Shown in pieces: positions 46,296 through 54,966 of a stretch of 64,000 nucleotides of DNA. Position 1 is the first letter of the stretch; each line of letters opens with the position of its first letter. Source of the DNA: Advenella mimigardefordensis DPN7 (lineage in GTDB: Bacteria; Pseudomonadota; Gammaproteobacteria; Burkholderiales; Burkholderiaceae_B). The stretch covers positions 2,542,001 to 2,606,000 of the forward strand of contig NZ_CP003915.1 in assembly GCF_000521505.1 (NCBI RefSeq), given 5' to 3'. Position numbers and translations under genes: made by a program. The notes beneath the pieces are model-generated. The model ran no database searches. It saw nothing but the letters and a program-made list of their open reading frames with translations, and had not been told where the DNA came from.

Positions 46296-46464
46296 ATGTA
46301 AGAAAGATATATGAAAAAAACTAAGGGGTTATACACTTAATCCATCTTGCTTTGCACGTTGTGATGGGTACCTGCTGTTCGATGAATGTCGTGTCACCGC
46401 AAGCCTTCCACCCGGCTGCGTTACGCGACCGCAATAACGACACTTCACTGCCGCTCCGGCTTTT

Positions 46465-46478
46465 TTGATTGCTATCAA
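46465..46478. promoter_or_regulatory. FNR box (TTGAT-N4-ATCAA) before the fnr-like gene
   Basis: TTGATTGCTATCAA is a perfect palindromic match to the FNR/ANR consensus. It ends 15 bases before the ATG at 46494 and overlaps the likely ribosome-site region (AAGG), a position expected for repression. This fits the known negative autoregulation of FNR-type proteins. Confidence 0.75.
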
Positions 46479-46493
46479 GGTCACGCGCATATC

Positions 46494-47252
46494 ATGATTA
46501 AACATCAGCTTCTGAACAAGGATTCCGTTTACTGCAATACTTGTGTCCTGGGGCATATCTGCGTACCCCAGGGGCTTAATGCTCAGGACGCCGCAAGACT
46601 GAACGAGCTGGTCAAGGAACGAATCCGTATTCCCAAAGGCACCCTCTTTTTCAAGGCGGGCGACCGGCTCACCGCTCTGTATGGCATCCGCTCGGGCTCC
46701 ATGAAACTGCAACTGGAAAACGAATCAGGCCATATGCAAATTACAGGATTTGTCTTTGCGGGTGAAATCATCGGCCTGGATGCCCTGACCGAGAACGTGC
46801 ATGTGTCCAACGCCATTGCCATGGAAGATACTGAAGTGTGTGTTATACGCACCAGCGATCTGACTTATTTGTCCAAGGAAATTCCGGCGCTGGCCCATCG
46901 TGTTACTCGCCTTATGAGCCAGGAAATTTCGCGCTCGCATAGCATGGTGCTGTCGCTCGGCGCCATGCGTTCCGAACAAAGGCTGGCTGCGTTCCTGATC
47001 AATCTCTCGCAGCGCTTCACCTGTTTGGGTTATTCGGGTAGTGAGTATGTGCTACGCATGAGCCGTGAGGAAATCGGCAACTATCTGGGGCTGACACTTG
47101 AAACAGTCAGCCGCCTGCTGTCACGATTTGCCAAGGAAGGCCTGATCCGCATCCATCAGCGAGAGGTGCGAATTCTGGACTTCAATGGCCTGCAAACGCT
47201 GATTCAAAACGAAAATATGCACCGCACAGACTTGCGCAGGGCACTTGCCTAA
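46494..47252 (+). CDS. fnr: FNR-type oxygen-sensing transcriptional regulator
   Basis: 252 residues from the ATG at 46494. N-terminal cysteines C14, C17 and C23 (SVYCNTCVLGHIC) plus C116 (TEVCVIR) are arranged as the four [4Fe-4S] ligands of E. coli FNR. A cyclic-nucleotide-type beta-barrel and dimer helix (YLSKEIPALAHRVTRLMSQE) follow, and the HTH contains SREEIGNYLGLTLETVSRLL with the E-x-x-S-R residues that read TTGAT. It activates microaerobic genes. It lies next to the cco cluster (convergent) and has an FNR box in its own promoter. Confidence 0.93.
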   Translation: MIKHQLLNKDSVYCNTCVLGHICVPQGLNAQDAARLNELVKERIRIPKGTLFFKAGDRLTALYGIRSGSMKLQLENESGHMQITGFVFAGEIIGLDALTENVHVSNAIAMEDTEVCVIRTSDLTYLSKEIPALAHRVTRLMSQEISRSHSMVLSLGAMRSEQRLAAFLINLSQRFTCLGYSGSEYVLRMSREEIGNYLGLTLETVSRLLSRFAKEGLIRIHQREVRILDFNGLQTLIQNENMHRTDLRRALA

Positions 47253-47288: not shown

Positions 47289-47543
47289 TTAGTCTTCCTG
47301 TTCGGTATTCCTGGAAAACAGCGATAAATTGTTACCGCTGCTGGACATAAAAAAGCTGAGTGTACTGGAGAACGCAGCGGTAAGCCAGAACAGAAAGAAA
47401 CCGGCAGCATAGGCCAGTTCACTTGAAATACGGATATATCCGAACAAAGGAATATCCCGGGGATCAACCAGTGCGAACACAACCCCACTGGCAAAGCCTG
47501 CGGCAAGAAACGATGGCCAGAGTATCCACATGATAGTACGCAT
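47289..47543 (-). CDS. Small membrane protein at the end of the cco cluster
   Basis: 84 residues with two hydrophobic segments (IMWILWPSFLAAGFASGVVF and LAYAAGFFLFWLTAAFSSTL) and a polar tail ending NTEQED. GGGAG lies five bases before the ATG at 47543. It follows the FixH-like gene by two bases, so it is cotranscribed and probably translationally coupled. Not a recognised family; a role in oxidase assembly is suggested only by position. Confidence 0.65.
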   Translation of the reverse strand: MRTIMWILWPSFLAAGFASGVVFALVDPRDIPLFGYIRISSELAYAAGFFLFWLTAAFSSTLSFFMSSSGNNLSLFSRNTEQED

Positions 47544-47545
47544 GG

Positions 47546-47788
47546 TTACTCCCGAGGGGCATTATGACTGGCTGTCGGCGGCGCTGTAACCACCGGCCCG
47601 TCCCCCTCCCGAAGCACCATCAACCCGTGCTTGCGCGCATCCAGTCGTACTTCGTGATCAGGATTGTCCTGGAATGCCAGCACAATCGTAATGATGCAGC
47701 CAATGATGGCAGCAAAAGGGCCTGCCATCAGCAACCACGGCCAGGGTTCCCTGTACCAGGGTCCGTTATCTCGTTCCTGCAGTGGCAT
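47546..47788 (-). CDS. ccoH: Short FixH/CcoH-like protein
   Basis: 80 residues. The N-terminus (WYREPWPWLLMAGPFAAIIG, then CIITIVLAFQ) matches the FixH membrane helix with the PWPW motif. The usual FixH has about 150-170 residues with a periplasmic beta-domain; here only the helix, DHEVRLDARKHGLMV and a short Pro/Ala tail remain. An AGGAG ribosome site precedes the ATG. FixH assists cytochrome cbb3 oxidase assembly. The shortening is clear; whether it is normal in this lineage cannot be told. Confidence 0.75.
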   Translation of the reverse strand: MPLQERDNGPWYREPWPWLLMAGPFAAIIGCIITIVLAFQDNPDHEVRLDARKHGLMVLREGDGPVVTAPPTASHNAPRE

Positions 47789-47802: not shown

Positions 47803-49302
47803 TTATTCATTAGGGACAAAAAAAGTGGTATCGTGCTGAGCCGACAACGTGCCTTTGGTCCTATCGGTGTTTTCTATATACAGGGTCAATGGATGCAATC
47901 CCTTGGCCGCCCCCTCGGCTGCGATGCGAATTACCATAGGCACCCATTGGTTGGAGAAAGCCGGTACATCAATTTCCTGCTCATTGCCCTCGCCCACCAA
48001 CACCGCCACTTGTCCGATATCTTTGGAAGTGGCCTTCAGAACAAATTTCTGATCTTGTTCCGACATATTAATCACCTGAATGCGATAAACGTTCTCGATC
48101 AGGCCGCCCGGTATTTCCCGCCCAAGCACACCCCGATCACGCACAATATCTACCCTCAGGGGTGAACGCAGCGACAGCGAAACCAGCAAACCAATAATGA
48201 ATACGCTCAACAACGTGATATATACATAAATGCGAGGCTTGAACAAACGCTGACGCGCCTGTTTTTTGTCCAGCCCATCGAGCATCCCGCTTTCGGACGT
48301 ATAGCGGATCAGACCCGTTGGGTAATTCATTTTATCCATCACCTGATTACAGGCGTCGATACAGGCGCCGCAGCCAATGCACATATACTGCAGCCCATCC
48401 CTGATGTCGATCCCGGTCGGACAGACCTGTACACAGATGGTACAGTCAACACAATCGCCCAATCCGGCTTCGCTGGGAACCACTTTCTTGGATCGACGAC
48501 CTCGCGGCTCGCCCCGAATCCTGTCGTAGGTGACGACAAAGGTGTCCTTGTCTACCATCACGCTTTGAAAGCGTGCATAGGGGCACATATATTTACAGAC
48601 GGACTCACGCAGAAAGCCGGCGTTGCCCCAGGTTGCAAAGGAATAGAAGATCATCCAGAACCACTGCCAGAAGCTCAGTTCGAAATGGATGAGTTCAACG
48701 CCCAGCTCCCGGATGGGAGAAAAATAGCCAATGAATGTTGACCCCGTCCACCAGGCCACCACAAGCCATAAAAAGTGCTTCGTTGCCTTTATCCTGAACT
48801 TGCGCAGGCTCATTGGCGACTCATCAAGCCGGATGCGGGCAACGCGATCACCTTCCACCTTGCGCTCTATCCACATGAATATTTCGGTATAAACCGTTTG
48901 CGGACAGGCGTATCCGCAAAATAGCCGACCCGCAAGCGCTGTAAACAGAAACAGGCCGTAAGCCGAAATAATGAGGATGATGGCCAGGTAGAACACGTCC
49001 TGCGGCCAGAGCACAATCCCAAAGATATAGAATTTGCGCTCGGCCAGATCGAACAGCACCGCCTGACGGCCGTTCCATTGCAGCCAGGGCAAACCATAGA
49101 ATATCGCCTGGGTGGCAAGCACCAGAATAATCCGCCATTTGGCAAAGACACCGGTCACAGAACGCGGATATATTTTTGCGCGGATCTCTTCGATCTGCAT
49201 GCTGCTGTCATCGGCAGAGGCGACCCGCGCCTGAACCAATCTGGGTGGTTGCCAGGCGGGCACCTCCTCTGCCGCAGACTGCTCTGGTTGCTTATCGGAC
49301 AT
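47803..49302 (-). CDS. ccoG: Cytochrome c oxidase accessory protein CcoG (FixG/RdxA)
   Basis: 499 residues. Five or six membrane helices surround a cytoplasmic ferredoxin-like region with two 4Fe-4S motifs (CVDCTICVQVCPTG and CIGCGACIDACNQVM), preceded by the Cys segment LFCGYACPQTVYTEIFMWIE. CcoG reduces copper(II) for delivery to the cbb3 oxidase. It lies 24 bases after ccoP, in the usual ccoNOQP-GH order. Confidence 0.95.
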   Translation of the reverse strand: MSDKQPEQSAAEEVPAWQPPRLVQARVASADDSSMQIEEIRAKIYPRSVTGVFAKWRIILVLATQAIFYGLPWLQWNGRQAVLFDLAERKFYIFGIVLWPQDVFYLAIILIISAYGLFLFTALAGRLFCGYACPQTVYTEIFMWIERKVEGDRVARIRLDESPMSLRKFRIKATKHFLWLVVAWWTGSTFIGYFSPIRELGVELIHFELSFWQWFWMIFYSFATWGNAGFLRESVCKYMCPYARFQSVMVDKDTFVVTYDRIRGEPRGRRSKKVVPSEAGLGDCVDCTICVQVCPTGIDIRDGLQYMCIGCGACIDACNQVMDKMNYPTGLIRYTSESGMLDGLDKKQARQRLFKPRIYVYITLLSVFIIGLLVSLSLRSPLRVDIVRDRGVLGREIPGGLIENVYRIQVINMSEQDQKFVLKATSKDIGQVAVLVGEGNEQEIDVPAFSNQWVPMVIRIAAEGAAKGLHPLTLYIENTDRTKGTLSAQHDTTFFVPNE

Positions 49303-49326: not shown

Positions 49327-50229
49327 TTATTTGTTGGATAAACCCCAAACATAGGCGGCCAGCATACGGATCTGATCTTCAGACAAAACGTGTTTCTGTG
49401 CTGGCATCACGCCCTGGCGCCCATGCAATATCGTATTGACAATGGTCTCGCGGGAACTGCCGCCCAGCCAGATTTCATCGGTCAGGTTGGGCGCACCCAG
49501 CGCCTGGTTGCCCTTGCCATCCATGCCGTGACAGGCGAAACACACTTTTTTGAACCCTGCCTGACCTGCTGCCAATAGTGTTGGATCACTGGCCAGACCC
49601 GAGAGAGAGCGCACATAGTGAGCGATTTCATTGGCTTCCGAGGGCGTAATCGCTGCAGCCAGCGGCGCCATGACACCATGACGACCATCTGTAATGGTTT
49701 TGATAATGACCTCTGGTGTACCACCATAGAGCCAGTCACTGTCGGTCAGATTGGGAAAATTCGGTGCGCCCCTGGCGTCGGAACCATGGCATTGTGCACA
49801 GTTGTTCAGGAAAAGGCGCTTGCCGATGGCATTGGCTTCCGGATTGCCGGCCAGCTCCTGTACCGACAAAGCCGAGAATTTCTCAAACAACGGTTTAATT
49901 TGTGCCGCCTGTGCCTCGCGCTCAGTGACCACCTGCTTGGCAGACGTATAGCCGAGCAGGCCCGGATAGGAACCGAGAGCCGGATACAGCAACATGATAC
50001 TGAGCGCGATAGCACAAAGCCCCAGATACATCACCGTCCACCAGCGCGGAACCGGATTATTGAGTTCGCGCAGGTCTTCGTCCCAGACATGGCCGGTGTC
50101 TTCGACCTGCGGCGTTGCGCTCTTGAGCCAGCGACGCTGGGTAAACAGCAGCCACACGCACCACGCCACCCCGGCCAGAGACACGATGGCAATGTAATAA
50201 CCCCAAGAATTACTGAAAAAATCACTCAT
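49327..50229 (-). CDS. ccoP: Cytochrome cbb3 oxidase, diheme subunit CcoP
   Basis: 300 residues from the ATG at 50229 with GAAGGG upstream. Two N-terminal membrane helices (YYIAIVSLAGVAWCVWLLF and VMYLGLCAIALSIMLLYP) flank the conserved GHVWDEDLRELNNPVPRWW. Two c-type haem sites are CAQCH (144-148) and CFACH (230-234). The periplasmic domain passes electrons to CcoO. It follows ccoQ by four bases. Confidence 0.96.
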   Translation of the reverse strand: MSDFFSNSWGYYIAIVSLAGVAWCVWLLFTQRRWLKSATPQVEDTGHVWDEDLRELNNPVPRWWTVMYLGLCAIALSIMLLYPALGSYPGLLGYTSAKQVVTEREAQAAQIKPLFEKFSALSVQELAGNPEANAIGKRLFLNNCAQCHGSDARGAPNFPNLTDSDWLYGGTPEVIIKTITDGRHGVMAPLAAAITPSEANEIAHYVRSLSGLASDPTLLAAGQAGFKKVCFACHGMDGKGNQALGAPNLTDEIWLGGSSRETIVNTILHGRQGVMPAQKHVLSEDQIRMLAAYVWGLSNK

Positions 50230-50233
50230 TTTT

Positions 50234-50395
50234 TTACCCTTCACCACGAGTTGTCGTTGCTTCGTCAGGGACGGCGAACGGCAGACGCGCTGCCTCGTCG
50301 TTAGCGCTCACGCGATGCCTGGACCAGGCCCAGGCAATGATCCCGAAAAACGTCATAATGGATACGATGGTCATGATCCCGATTGCGATGTCCAT
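50234..50395 (-). CDS. ccoQ: Cytochrome cbb3 oxidase subunit CcoQ
   Basis: 53 residues, too short for many gene finders. Reading the minus strand from the ATG at 50395 gives MDIAIGIMTIVSIMTFFGII followed by AWAWSRHRVSANDEAARLPF and an Ala/Thr-rich end. One membrane helix with the W-S-x-x-x-x region is typical for CcoQ (FixQ), which stabilises the core complex. AGGTGA precedes the start; the gene sits between ccoO and ccoP. Confidence 0.9.
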   Translation of the reverse strand: MDIAIGIMTIVSIMTFFGIIAWAWSRHRVSANDEAARLPFAVPDEATTTRGEG

Positions 50396-50419: not shown

Positions 50420-51079
50420 CTAGTTGGATGCTGCTGCGTCTTGTTGACGCAGTGCAGACAGATACCCGACGCCCAGGCTTTGCAAATAGGCAATAATGGC
50501 GTCCTCTTCGGTTTTACCCTTGAGTGCTGCAGGCGCATCAGCGATCTGCTTATCGGTATAAGGCACACCCAGGGTACGCAGTGCATTCATGCGGGCCTGA
50601 ATGTTCTCATTGGACACGTCTTTGTTCTGCAGCCAGCGGTAGCCCGGCATATTGGACTCCTTCACCACATCGCGCGGGTTGCGCAGGTGGATACGGTGCC
50701 ATTCATCTGAATAGCGCCCGCCCACCCGGGCCAGATCAGGTCCGGTACGTTTCGAACCCCACAAGAAGGGGTGATCGTAGACGAACTCGCCGGCCACTGA
50801 ATAAGGGCCATAACGTGACACTTCAGACTGCAGTGTGCGGATCTGCTGAGAATGGCAGCCGACACAGCCTTCCTTGATGTAAACATCCCGGCCGATAATC
50901 TGCAGCGCCTGCAGGGGTTCTACACCGGGTGCGGCCTTGGTTGTATAGTGCTGGAAAAACAGGGGCACAATTTGCACCAGGCCGGCAAAGGCTACAACGA
51001 TGATCGAAAAGATAATCAGAAGCCCGACGTTTTTTTCCAGTGTTTCATGGGTAAACAAACGCTTTTTTTGATTCGTCAT
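50420..51079 (-). CDS. ccoO: Cytochrome cbb3 oxidase, monoheme subunit CcoO
   Basis: 219 residues from the ATG at 51079; the longer frame to 51160 overlaps ccoN. The N-terminal helix is followed by [20 protein letters not shown] with the haem-binding CVGCH (72-76), then [20 protein letters not shown] and the distal Met in NMPGYRWL. It transfers electrons from CcoP to the CcoN active site. It follows ccoN by 10 bases. Confidence 0.96.
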
Positions 51080-51089
51080 GATAGATCTC

Positions 51090-52562
51090 TTAAACAGCTG
51101 TAGCGGGTTGAGCAGTACGGGCATCGTGACCGACAAAGGCCGGCACTTGCGGATTGACACCCTTGAGTCCCTTGATAGTCATAACCATGTTGTAGAACAT
51201 GACCAGCACACCACTAAGGAAGCATATCCCGCCGAGAATACGGATGATGTACAGCACATATTTAGATGCCAGCGCCTGAACAAAGGCGTAGGTCAGCGTA
51301 CCGTCGGCTTCAGTTGAACGCCACATCAGGCCTTCCATTACTCCGGCAATCCACATGGAAGCGATATACAACACGACACCGATGGTAGCCATCCAGAAAT
51401 GAGCCTCGATCAATGATTTGCTATACATGGATTCGCGTCCGTACAGGCGTGGAATCATGTAATACAGGCTGCCAAAGGTAATCATGGCGACCCAGCCCAG
51501 CGCGCCGGAATGTACGTGTGCAACTGTCCACTCCGTGTAGTGAGAAAGTGCATTCACGGTCCGGATGGACATCATGGAACCTTCAAAGGTTGACATACCG
51601 TAGAACGACAGCGCAACGACCAGAAACTTCAGGATAGGATCGGTGCGCAGCTTGTGCCAGGCGCCGGACAGCGTCATGATGCCGTTGATCATCCCACCCC
51701 AGGACGGTGCCAGCAGGATCAGCGAAAAGGCCATACCCAGGCTTTGTGTCCAGTCAGGCAATGAGGTGTAAAGCAGATGGTGCGGACCGGCCCACATATA
51801 AGTGAAGGCCAGTGCCCAGAAGTGCACAATGGACAGGCGATAGGAGTAGATGGGGCGATTGGCCTGTTTGGGCACAAAGTAGTACATCATGCCCAGAAAA
51901 CTGGTGGTCAGGAAAAAGCCCACTGCATTGTGGCCATACCACCATTGCACCATGGCATCCTGTGCACCCGCATAGGCGGAATAGGAGTTGAACCAGCTAT
52001 AGGGCAACTCGATATTGTTGAAGATATGCAGGATGGCGATCGTGAGAATGAAGGAACCATAGAACCAGTTGGCCACATAAATGTGTTTCATCTTGCGCTT
52101 GACGATCGTGCCGAAAAAGACGATGGCGTACGCGACCCAGACCAGGGTAATCAGAATGTCGATAGGCCATTCAAGTTCGGCATATTCCTTACTGGTGGTG
52201 TAGCCGGCCGGCAAGGTAATCGCCGCAGCCACAATGACCAGTTGCCAGCCCCAGAACGTGAATGAAGCCAGTGGTCCACAGAACAGACGCGTCTGACAGG
52301 TGCGTTGGACAACGTAATAGGAGGTAGCAAACAGTGCGCTACCGCCAAAGGCAAAAATAACCGCATTGGTGTGCAACGGACGCAGACGACCATAGCTGAG
52401 CCAATCTACAAAGTTCAGTTCCGGCCAGACCAGCTGTGCTGCAATGAAGACGCCGACAAACATGCCGACAATCCCCCACACAACCGTCATGATAGTGAAC
52501 TGACGCACGACTGTGTAATTGAAAATCTCCGCGTCCGCGGAGCGCGCATTCTGGACACGCAT
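51090..52562 (-). CDS. ccoN: Cytochrome cbb3 oxidase catalytic subunit CcoN
   Basis: 490 residues, twelve membrane helices. Haem-copper oxidase signatures are seen: [14 protein letters not shown] (low-spin haem His), [14 protein letters not shown] with the conserved cross-linked His/Tyr region of C-type oxidases, [19 protein letters not shown] (copper His pair) and [16 protein letters not shown]. It reduces oxygen with high affinity under microaerobic conditions. GGGG lies upstream of the ATG, and a perfect FNR box lies 59 bases before the gene. Confidence 0.97.
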
Positions 52563-52740: not shown

Positions 52741-52959
52741 TTACTTTGGCCGCTGCGACCCGGCAGAAGGCCCGGCGCCAGCCTCTCTGTCCGCCTTTTT
52801 TTCGGGCCCCCTGAATGCGGCATCGTCGTCCTGCAATATGACACTTGCATTACCATCACTATCGTCAAACTGACCGGACATCACTGCCCAATACAACAGC
52901 CCGCCAATACTCATGACAAACAGAAAAGCGAGAAAGACAAGAAGAAAGAATACGTCCAT
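52741..52959 (-). CDS. ccoS: Cytochrome cbb3 oxidase assembly protein CcoS
   Basis: 72 residues from the ATG at 52959 (the longer open frame includes part of the upstream gene). The N-terminal helix FFLLVFLAFLFVMSIGGLLY, then WAVMSGQFDDSD, is the CcoS hallmark. The tail is Lys/Ala/Pro-rich. CcoS is needed to insert haem b and copper into CcoN. It begins eight bases after the CcoI-like gene and lies upstream of ccoN. Confidence 0.88.
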   Translation of the reverse strand: MDVFFLLVFLAFLFVMSIGGLLYWAVMSGQFDDSDGNASVILQDDDAAFRGPEKKADREAGAGPSAGSQRPK

Positions 52960-52966
52960 GGCAGCG

Positions 52967-53947
52967 CTATGCCGACGACGAATTGATCGCAATGCTGCCT
53001 GACTCGGCTGGCTTGCCAACTGCATAATTTTTATAAAAGCGCCAGGCATAAAATGCCACCGCCAGTGACGACACCAGCATGGTGATGGCAGCAAGCCAGG
53101 GCTGGACCAGACCCGCCATGGCAAATGGAATCATCAGCAGATGCCACAGCAACGAGCCATAAAGGGAGCGACGCGCAACACTAACGGTTTCTGCGCGTAA
53201 GGCGACAAGTGCCTGCTGGCTGAGTGGCGGACTGCCAAGAACAATGGCGCGGGCAGCTGCCTGCGCCGAAGGGACCGCCATGGCCATCGCACAGGGACAG
53301 CTCATGACAAACAGGGCGACCAGGACGGGCAGAGCGTGACCGGGATCGATATACAAATACCAGACAAGCGCGGAGACAATGGAGAGCACGATTTGTATGG
53401 TTACGAAATACAGCCCTACCCGATCCGCGGCAGCAGCCAGCGACCTGAATGTCTGATCAAAGAGCTGGTCGAGCGCCGCGCCTGCCGATTGCCTGGCAGC
53501 CAGCGCCAGATAGCGCGCCGTGAGTACGAACGCTACGAACATGGCAATGGATTCGAAATAAACCTCACCTGATTGGCGAAAGGTTGCAACGGCACTGGGA
53601 ATAAAGGCCACCACAATGCCCAGGCCAATGGGCCAGTTCATGGAACGCTGATGGGCATCGGCCGGATCCTGGCCGACAAAGCCGCGCCAGATTGGCCAGG
53701 CGCAATAAAGCAGCACGGGTATGGTCAGCAGCAGGCTGCACCAATTCATGACGATAATGGCCGTATCCAGCGTATCGACGGTTTCGGGATCCGCGTAGCT
53801 GGCGCGAAGATAGCCAGGAAAGGCGAACATCATGACCTGCATCATGACCAGCCAGGCCAGTCCGAGCCGGGCAAGCATGTGCCTGCGCTGCAGGCGTTCC
53901 TGAGCACCAAGATCGTTAGGGATCGAGAAGATGGAGGCAGGTTTCAT
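52967..53947 (-). CDS. CcoI-like copper P-type ATPase lacking all cytosolic domains
   Basis: 326 residues. The membrane part of CcoI/FixI is recognisable: MNWPIGLGIVVAFIPSAVAT, GEVYFESIAMFVAFVLTARY, the CPC copper motif (217-219) in VMSCPCAMAMAVPSAQAAA, and a last helix ITMLVSSLAVAFYAWR. The N-terminal heavy-metal domain, the actuator domain (TGES, expected near residue 160) and the P/N domains (DKTGT, TGD, HP, expected near 235-250) are absent, removed without breaking the frame. The YN of helix 7 is WH. It cannot be a normal ATP-driven pump. The start is uncertain: the ATG at 53947 has no proper ribosome site. Confidence 0.8.
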   Translation of the reverse strand: MKPASIFSIPNDLGAQERLQRRHMLARLGLAWLVMMQVMMFAFPGYLRASYADPETVDTLDTAIIVMNWCSLLLTIPVLLYCAWPIWRGFVGQDPADAHQRSMNWPIGLGIVVAFIPSAVATFRQSGEVYFESIAMFVAFVLTARYLALAARQSAGAALDQLFDQTFRSLAAAADRVGLYFVTIQIVLSIVSALVWYLYIDPGHALPVLVALFVMSCPCAMAMAVPSAQAAARAIVLGSPPLSQQALVALRAETVSVARRSLYGSLLWHLLMIPFAMAGLVQPWLAAITMLVSSLAVAFYAWRFYKNYAVGKPAESGSIAINSSSA

Positions 53948-53981: not shown

Positions 53982-53995
53982 TTGATCTATGTCAA
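53982..53995. promoter_or_regulatory. FNR box before the CcoI-like gene
   Basis: TTGATCTATGTCAA matches the FNR palindrome in nine of ten conserved positions (GTCAA for ATCAA). Its centre is 41.5 bases from the ATG at 53947, so this promoter and that of ccoN appear to be under the same oxygen control. Confidence 0.7.
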
Positions 53996-54051: not shown

Positions 54052-54966
54052 TCAAACGGGATTGAACACACCCTGAGACAAATACCGATCGCCGCGGTCA
54101 CAGACGATAAAGACAATGGTCGCATTATTCACCCTTTCGGCAGTGCGCAATGCGGCCACCAGCGCCCCTGCGGAGGAAATGCCACCAAAAATACCTTCAC
54201 TGGCAGCCAGATGGCGGGCCATATCTTCGGCTTCCTGCTGTCCGATCAGCTCAAACTGATCAACGCCCGCCTTGTTATAGATGGCCGGCTGATATTCTTC
54301 AGACCACTTCCTGATGCCAGGAATCGATGCCCCGGGAGCGGGCTGTGCGCCGATGATCTGGATATCGGCGTTTCGCGATTTGAGGTAGGATCCCACCCCC
54401 ATGATCGTGCCGGTTGTGCCCATTGCGCTCACAAAATGCGTCACCTTTCCGTCGGTCTGGTTCCAGATTTCCGGACCGGTGCCTTCGATATGGGCACGCG
54501 GATTATCGGGATTGGCAAACTGGTCAAGCACCTTGCCCTTGCCTTCGGCCTGCATGGACTGCGCCAGGTCACGCGCATATTCCATACCGCCTTTGTCGGC
54601 CGGTGTCAGAATAAGCTGGGCGCCGTAGGCATTCATTGAAGCACGGCGTTCCACAGACAGGTTATCCGGCATGATCAGAATCATTTTATAGCCACTGATG
54701 GCCGCTGCCATCGCCAGCGCAATACCGGTGTTGCCGCTGGTGGCTTCAATAAGGGTATCGCCGGGCCGGATATCGCCGCGCTCCTGTGCGTGCCTGATCA
54801 TGGACAAAGCCGGCCGGTCTTTGACTGAACCGGCAGGATTATTGCCTTCGAGCTTGGCCAGAATCACATTGCCGCGCGCTTCACCCAGATGTGAGGGAAT
54901 ACGCTGCAGGCGCACCAGCGGCGTATTGCCGATGGTATCTTCGATTGTGGGGTACGTTTTTGTCAT
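54052..54966 (-). CDS. cysM: Cysteine synthase B (O-acetylserine sulfhydrylase)
   Basis: 304 residues of the PLP-dependent beta family. The PLP lysine is K49 in GNNPAGSVKDRP; the phosphate-binding loop is TSGNTGIALA-like (EATSGNTGIAL) and GTTGTIMGVGSYLK follows. The segment with IGAQPAPGASIPGIRKW and the length fit CysM rather than CysK; CysM can use thiosulfate as sulfur donor. It lies downstream of the comEA-like gene on the same strand. Confidence 0.93.
   Translation of the reverse strand: MTKTYPTIEDTIGNTPLVRLQRIPSHLGEARGNVILAKLEGNNPAGSVKDRPALSMIRHAQERGDIRPGDTLIEATSGNTGIALAMAAAISGYKMILIMPDNLSVERRASMNAYGAQLILTPADKGGMEYARDLAQSMQAEGKGKVLDQFANPDNPRAHIEGTGPEIWNQTDGKVTHFVSAMGTTGTIMGVGSYLKSRNADIQIIGAQPAPGASIPGIRKWSEEYQPAIYNKAGVDQFELIGQQEAEDMARHLAASEGIFGGISSAGALVAALRTAERVNNATIVFIVCDRGDRYLSQGVFNPV

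Follow-up and report, generated by a model that had tools for sequence, protein, structure and literature searches.

A CcoI-like pseudo-ATPase reduced to its membrane core and conserved in the cbb3 oxidase operon of Advenella and its relatives

What is left for a copper-transporting ATPase to do once its catalytic domains are gone? The question is raised by one gene in a 64,000-nucleotide stretch of the Advenella mimigardefordensis DPN7 genome (contig NZ_CP003915.1, positions 2,542,001 to 2,606,000), hereafter the window. The open reading frame at 52967..53947 on the reverse strand starts with ATG and encodes a 326-residue protein (beginning MKPASIF) related to CcoI/FixI, the CopA2-type P1B ATPase of cbb3 oxidase assembly. 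An earlier note, made from the sequence alone, had read it as a CcoI/FixI without its metal-binding, actuator, phosphorylation (P) and nucleotide-binding (N) domains, and Pfam, NCBIfam and alignment agree with that reading. This stripped CcoI is a real and widespread pseudo-ATPase variant, whose function we infer. On balance, we think that it is probably a conserved CcoI/FixI orthologue that was reduced once to its membrane core and now helps to assemble CcoN as a membrane-embedded, Cu(I)-binding factor.

The loss of the catalytic domains is evident from several comparisons. All three stretches of sequence quoted in the earlier note were located in the frame. Pfam recognizes only the tail of PF00122 (profile positions 110-174 of 181) at residues 169-232, around helices M3-M4, and the best NCBIfam match is a partial one to TIGR01511 (60.5 bits, the cut-off being 397), the others being pieces of copper-ATPase models that score far under their cut-offs. 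The alignment comprised 179 stripped proteins and 64 full-length homologues, of which L135 is CopA-like and was excluded from the site counts, leaving 63 full-length entries. Removal of repeats gave 169 distinct stripped proteins over residues 30-299 and 59 full-length genes, four of which had been entered twice. Relative to full-length homologues, the window protein lacks a median of 180 residues at the N-terminus (the metal-binding part), 107 beyond residue 162 (the actuator domain) and, beyond residue 249, the 251 residues of the P and N domains. The actuator join thus falls at 53461..53462 and the P/N join at 53200..53201 (both reverse strand), placements that depend on the alignment and that accord with the in-frame joins previously suggested near residues 150-172 and 232-250.

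The motifs of catalysis are gone with these domains. A protein search scored 7998 candidates and returned 591 relatives at E ≤1e-3; among the 120 of these that were listed (259-340 residues), none has the DKTGT of the P domain, which is also absent from the window protein, the GDGxND hinge, which belongs to the missing N/P region of about 251 residues, or the N-terminal CxxC metal-binding motif. The TGE[SAP] pattern occurs in one of the 120, and the window protein lacks the actuator domain of about 107 residues. The predicted fold is still that of a copper P1B ATPase membrane domain. ATP-driven transport in cis is not to be expected of such a protein without the catalytic domains, and the public labels "P-type ATPase" and "cation transport ATPase" are wrong for a family whose members cannot be ATPases.

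The candidate copper ligands have had a different history. The CPC motif of M4 (residues 217-219; 53291..53299, reverse strand) is present in 119 of the 120 listed relatives, the exception (P0014) coming from a 991-base contig, and its cysteines are close to invariant among the distinct stripped proteins (C217 in 168/169, C219 in 169/169). The MxxSS motif of M6 (Met290 to Ser294; 53066..53080, reverse strand) is similarly constant, with Met290 in 168/168 and Ser294 in 166/168. Also kept are the methionine matching M148 of LpCopA (168/169) and an acidic residue at the presumed exit position (169/169). The cytosolic entry position corresponding to D337 is looser, with Asp in 104 of 169 stripped proteins versus 59 of 63 full-length entries, and another entry position is Ala in the window protein; a general loosening of the entry was considered and rejected, since just one of three positions shows it. 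In M5, Trp268-His269 (53141..53146, reverse strand) replaces the Tyr-Asn of full-length CcoI. Position 269 is His in all 168 distinct stripped proteins that cover the site (of 169) and Asn in all 63 full-length entries (59 genes). The second transmembrane copper site of these ATPases has been described as the M5 Asn together with a Met and a Ser of the last helix (PMC8475189); the stripped form retains the Met and Ser and has exchanged the Asn for His, and so departs from that site as known in P1B Cu-ATPases. The earlier note was right that CPC is retained and missed this replacement of Tyr-Asn by Trp-His at the transport site. A bolder proposal, which we entertain tentatively and with slightly more doubt than belief, is that this is an engine-less P-type ATPase family whose transport site has turned into a holding site of the Cys-Cys-His-Met type and, acting inside the membrane, puts CuB into place in CcoN.

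To place the variant in its host family, 229 genomes with a completeness of at least 90% were surveyed, a match to the stripped form being accepted at E ≤1e-90. By score, 161 of the 229 genomes carry it, in 31 of 42 genera (counted by hand), with match coordinates listed for all but about a dozen of them. The earlier note had named many orthologues with the same deletions as support for its reading, and they are indeed widespread. Rather than the full-length gene that a recent deletion would leave in close relatives, all 10 same-genus genomes (the host's own included) have the stripped form. Among 399 genomes drawn from the order, no match at 1e-45 lay outside the host family, all nine matches being from the family itself; this threshold would miss an independent, more diverged stripped form. 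Within the family, ccoS (PF03597) was detected in 183 of the 229 genomes and together with the stripped form in 160, and the one stripped-form genome without it (G224) has a gene that runs off its contig. Of the 23 genomes with ccoS and no stripped form, 16 carry a full-length relative with an open frame of 672-858 residues, and G169 scores like these full-length carriers (5.4e-41); G077 carries an interrupted copy of the stripped gene, in G088 the contig starts 120 bases away from ccoS, the ccoS matches of G113, G114 and G164 are no more than marginal (2.4e-4 to 7.6e-4), and G150 remains.

Phylogenies of the family place the stripped proteins in one clade. FastTree, run on the shared membrane columns and crudely rooted, recovers that clade (65 tips, 0.93) with no full-length protein inside it, and IQ-TREE with the host's own CopA as outgroup does likewise (69 tips, 90.3/98), on a long stem; several independent origins of the stripped form were therefore rejected. 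The sister group differs between the trees, being the full-length CcoI of genome G210 in FastTree (node 1.0), with which IQ-TREE disagrees (0/34). G210 (L177) belongs to genus g42 and has a full-length ccoI where other g42 genomes carry the stripped form. Nei-Gojobori ratios of nonsynonymous to synonymous substitution (dN/dS) are 0.05-0.24 in 62 of 63 within-group pairs, the remaining pair not being computable, and dS is saturated in several of them. Ratios so far below 1 indicate purifying selection, as had been anticipated, and together with the relatives they bear out the view that the frame is intact and not decayed. The relaxed selection and broken frames in relatives that characterize a pseudogene were thus not found for stripped CcoI, with one examined copy, that of G077, broken by an insert.

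In G077 (L178:5053-6003), a 316-residue open reading frame splits the stripped gene, and ccoN matches occur in two frames. The inserted frame reads like a transposase from its sequence, and the joint breakage of the two genes fits a shared fate. The genome may be that of Bordetella pertussis, a species for which a broken ccoN has been published (PMC13038864, PMC11257404).

A tie to the oxidase is also apparent in gene order. The stop codon of the stripped gene lies 8 nucleotides ahead of the ccoS ATG at 52958, and ccoS is followed in turn by ccoNOQP, ccoG and ccoH. We compared 36 named stripped-form loci (L035-L070), from Pelistega, Taylorella, Achromobacter, Bordetella, Pusillimonas, Castellaniella, Oligella and others: all 36 have ccoN downstream, 34 a detected ccoS and 33 a ccoG, the three loci without ccoG ending before its position. 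This spacing, the linkage and the co-occurrence with the cbb3 operon uphold the proposed coupling to ccoS. Full-length ccoI occupies the same slot in Cupriavidus and other betaproteobacteria and, in the host family, in G210 and G140.

Could the missing work be done by another ATPase in the same cell? A PF00122 search of the host genome gave four matches, the stripped gene and three full ATPases, which look CopA-type, ZntA-type and KdpB-type, the latter two names being our own reading of the sequences. That search and inspection of the ATPases revealed no full-length CcoI in the genome, an absence that the earlier note had named as support for its reading. Two Taylorella genomes offer a natural experiment: G195, whose protein is identical to that of the named T. 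asinigenitalis locus, and G196, whose protein is identical to one of T. equigenitalis. In both, the sole COX1-family (heme-copper oxidase) protein is CcoN, in line with a genome paper according to which cbb3 is the single terminal oxidase (PMC3250509), and an A-domain search finds beside the stripped CcoI a sole other full P-type ATPase, of the CopA branch. Because CcoN is the only oxidase and a CopA-branch protein the only full ATPase, cbb3 in Taylorella must be built without full-length CcoI. More broadly, cbb3 seems to be built without a dedicated pump in stripped-form bacteria. A CopA-type ATPase was present in 18 of 19 examined genomes with few P-type ATPases. In genome G201 (L146), a second copper-type ATPase has a CcoI-like MSLSS in M6 and branches with CopA proteins.

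Under the assembly-factor reading, the membrane core would hold Cu(I) at a candidate Cys217-Cys219-His269-Met290 site, with Ser294 also kept, and would pass it, with CcoS and periplasmic SenC-type chaperones (five matches in the host genome, four above cut-off), to CuB in CcoN; where copper must still be exported at the cost of ATP, the separate CopA-type ATPase would do so. That the core binds copper, in which direction copper flows and that cbb3 needs it are all suppositions from sequence. The published work on Rhodobacter reports that the CPC of CcoI is essential and that a ccoI deletion is rescued by neither added copper nor extra CopA, an absence of rescue that its authors, in their Discussion, find surprising compared with chaperone mutants (PMC8475189); this need for CPC and the failed rescue fit a hand-over of copper. 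Several observations weigh on the other side. In the same study, CcoI of Rhodobacter transports Cu(I) in an ATP-dependent manner, an activity considered important there, and CopA is no substitute for it (PMC8475189). No B. bronchiseptica strain relying on cbb3 alone could be obtained (PMC11257404), which could reflect poor assembly in such bacteria, provided that this species has the stripped form. Genome G161 (92% complete), one of the 19 with few P-type ATPases, showed a ZntA-type only and no CopA-type. Finally, CcoG has been described as a cytoplasmic copper reductase (PMC13038864), and its retention beside the stripped gene suggests that copper still crosses the cytoplasm, which would suit a conduit.

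Such a conduit, in which the engine-less core offers Cu(I) a facilitated path through the inner membrane, inward for uptake or outward to CuB, is the strongest of the alternatives, although we consider it unlikely. It would account for the retention of CPC, MxxSS, the M148-equivalent Met and the exit acid, and for the adjoining ccoG (33/36 loci, the other three ending earlier). However, P-type pumps alternate access by means of the very domains now lost, the inside-negative potential would, from general knowledge, oppose an outward flow of Cu+, the transport-site Asn has been replaced in all stripped proteins, and of the entry positions the D337 equivalent is looser and a second one has Ala in the window protein. 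We think hand-over or a scaffold role likelier than a passive channel. A purely structural role, with the protein keeping CcoN and CcoS together during assembly and no copper function left, would explain both the strict link to ccoS and ccoN and the loss of the catalytic parts; yet few residues are as well conserved as the candidate copper ligands and the His is fixed in the clade, and we give this somewhat less credence than a conduit.

Fainter still is the prospect that the core acts as a partner subunit of a CopA-type ATPase, steering its copper to cbb3. The frequent presence of CopA-type ATPases noted above would agree with it, but G063 keeps CopA with neither cbb3 nor the stripped gene, and no gene linkage is seen within this window. 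A split ATPase, drawing its catalytic domains from another protein, is very improbable and was rejected: PF00122 and a P/N-domain query match no additional proteins in the host genome, the latter finding just the three full ATPases, so no orphan actuator or P/N domain was found there. A decaying pseudogene, a recent deletion or an assembly error, for which the missing catalytic domains and the interrupted G077 copy might speak, is scarcely credible given the same form in 161 of 229 genomes and the low dN/dS.

Compared with known systems, the stripped form shares with CcoI/FixI its slot before ccoS, the membrane helices, CPC, MxxSS and an MMQVMM stretch in the first helix, and differs from it in the absent N-terminal metal-binding, actuator, P and N domains and in the M5 Tyr-Asn to Trp-His change. 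With CopA, the CopA1-type Cu(I) export ATPase, it shares the predicted membrane fold and CPC, whereas CopA is a full detoxification ATPase of a separate branch, encoded elsewhere in the host genome. Pseudo-enzymes in general have lost catalysis while a binding surface is kept under selection, as in stripped CcoI, which differs in having lost whole domains and not catalytic residues. We know of no family of P-type ATPases in which only the membrane domain is left; none was found in the literature searched (titles and abstract openings, with most subscription journals outside its scope), nor was any account of a CcoI without catalytic domains. Where cbb3 is made with a CcoI that has lost its pump, nature offers a way to study which role the membrane core has apart from pumping, and models that require CcoI-driven export for every cbb3 oxidase need revision. 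If the holding-site proposal is true, the functions would have been separated naturally, and the essential part of CcoI would be hand-over, not pumping.

The stripped gene also has its own FNR-type box, as had been claimed: TTGACATAGATCAA (53982-53995, reverse strand), upstream of the gene, has one mismatch to TTGAT-N4-ATCAA, which we take to be the FNR consensus. The box is mostly kept among named relatives. With at most one mismatch it was found upstream in 29 of 35 named loci, versus 0.9% of single-base shuffles, and was not found in the other six, Taylorella included; with two mismatches allowed, the figures are 34 of 35 and 8.3%.

The remaining operon genes all lie on the reverse strand. 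The 72-residue ccoS (52741..52958; PF03597, 38.1 bits) sits within a longer frame (52741-53124), its start being read from the sequence. It is followed by ccoN (51090..52562; PF00115), ccoO (50420..51160; PF02433), whose frame is given from the first start codon and whose true start may be internal, a ccoQ-like gene (50234..50395; PF05545, E 3.4e-5, 24.1 bits, under the cut-off of 29), ccoP (49327..50247; PF13442 and PF14715), ccoG (47803..49302; PF13746 and PF11614) and a ccoH-like gene (47546..47788; PF05751, E 2.3e-4, 21.6 bits, under the cut-off of 23). Directly 3' of the last is an 84-residue hydrophobic frame (47289-47543, reverse strand) with no Pfam match. A Crp/FNR-type regulator (46386-47252, forward strand) is convergent to the operon, and in many stripped-form loci an FNR relative was picked up close to the operon's end. 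A cysM-like gene (54052-54966, reverse strand) lies upstream of the stripped gene, and relatives of it occupy that position in 4 of the 36 named loci, from Pelistega, Oligella and one Alcaligenaceae metagenome-assembled genome.
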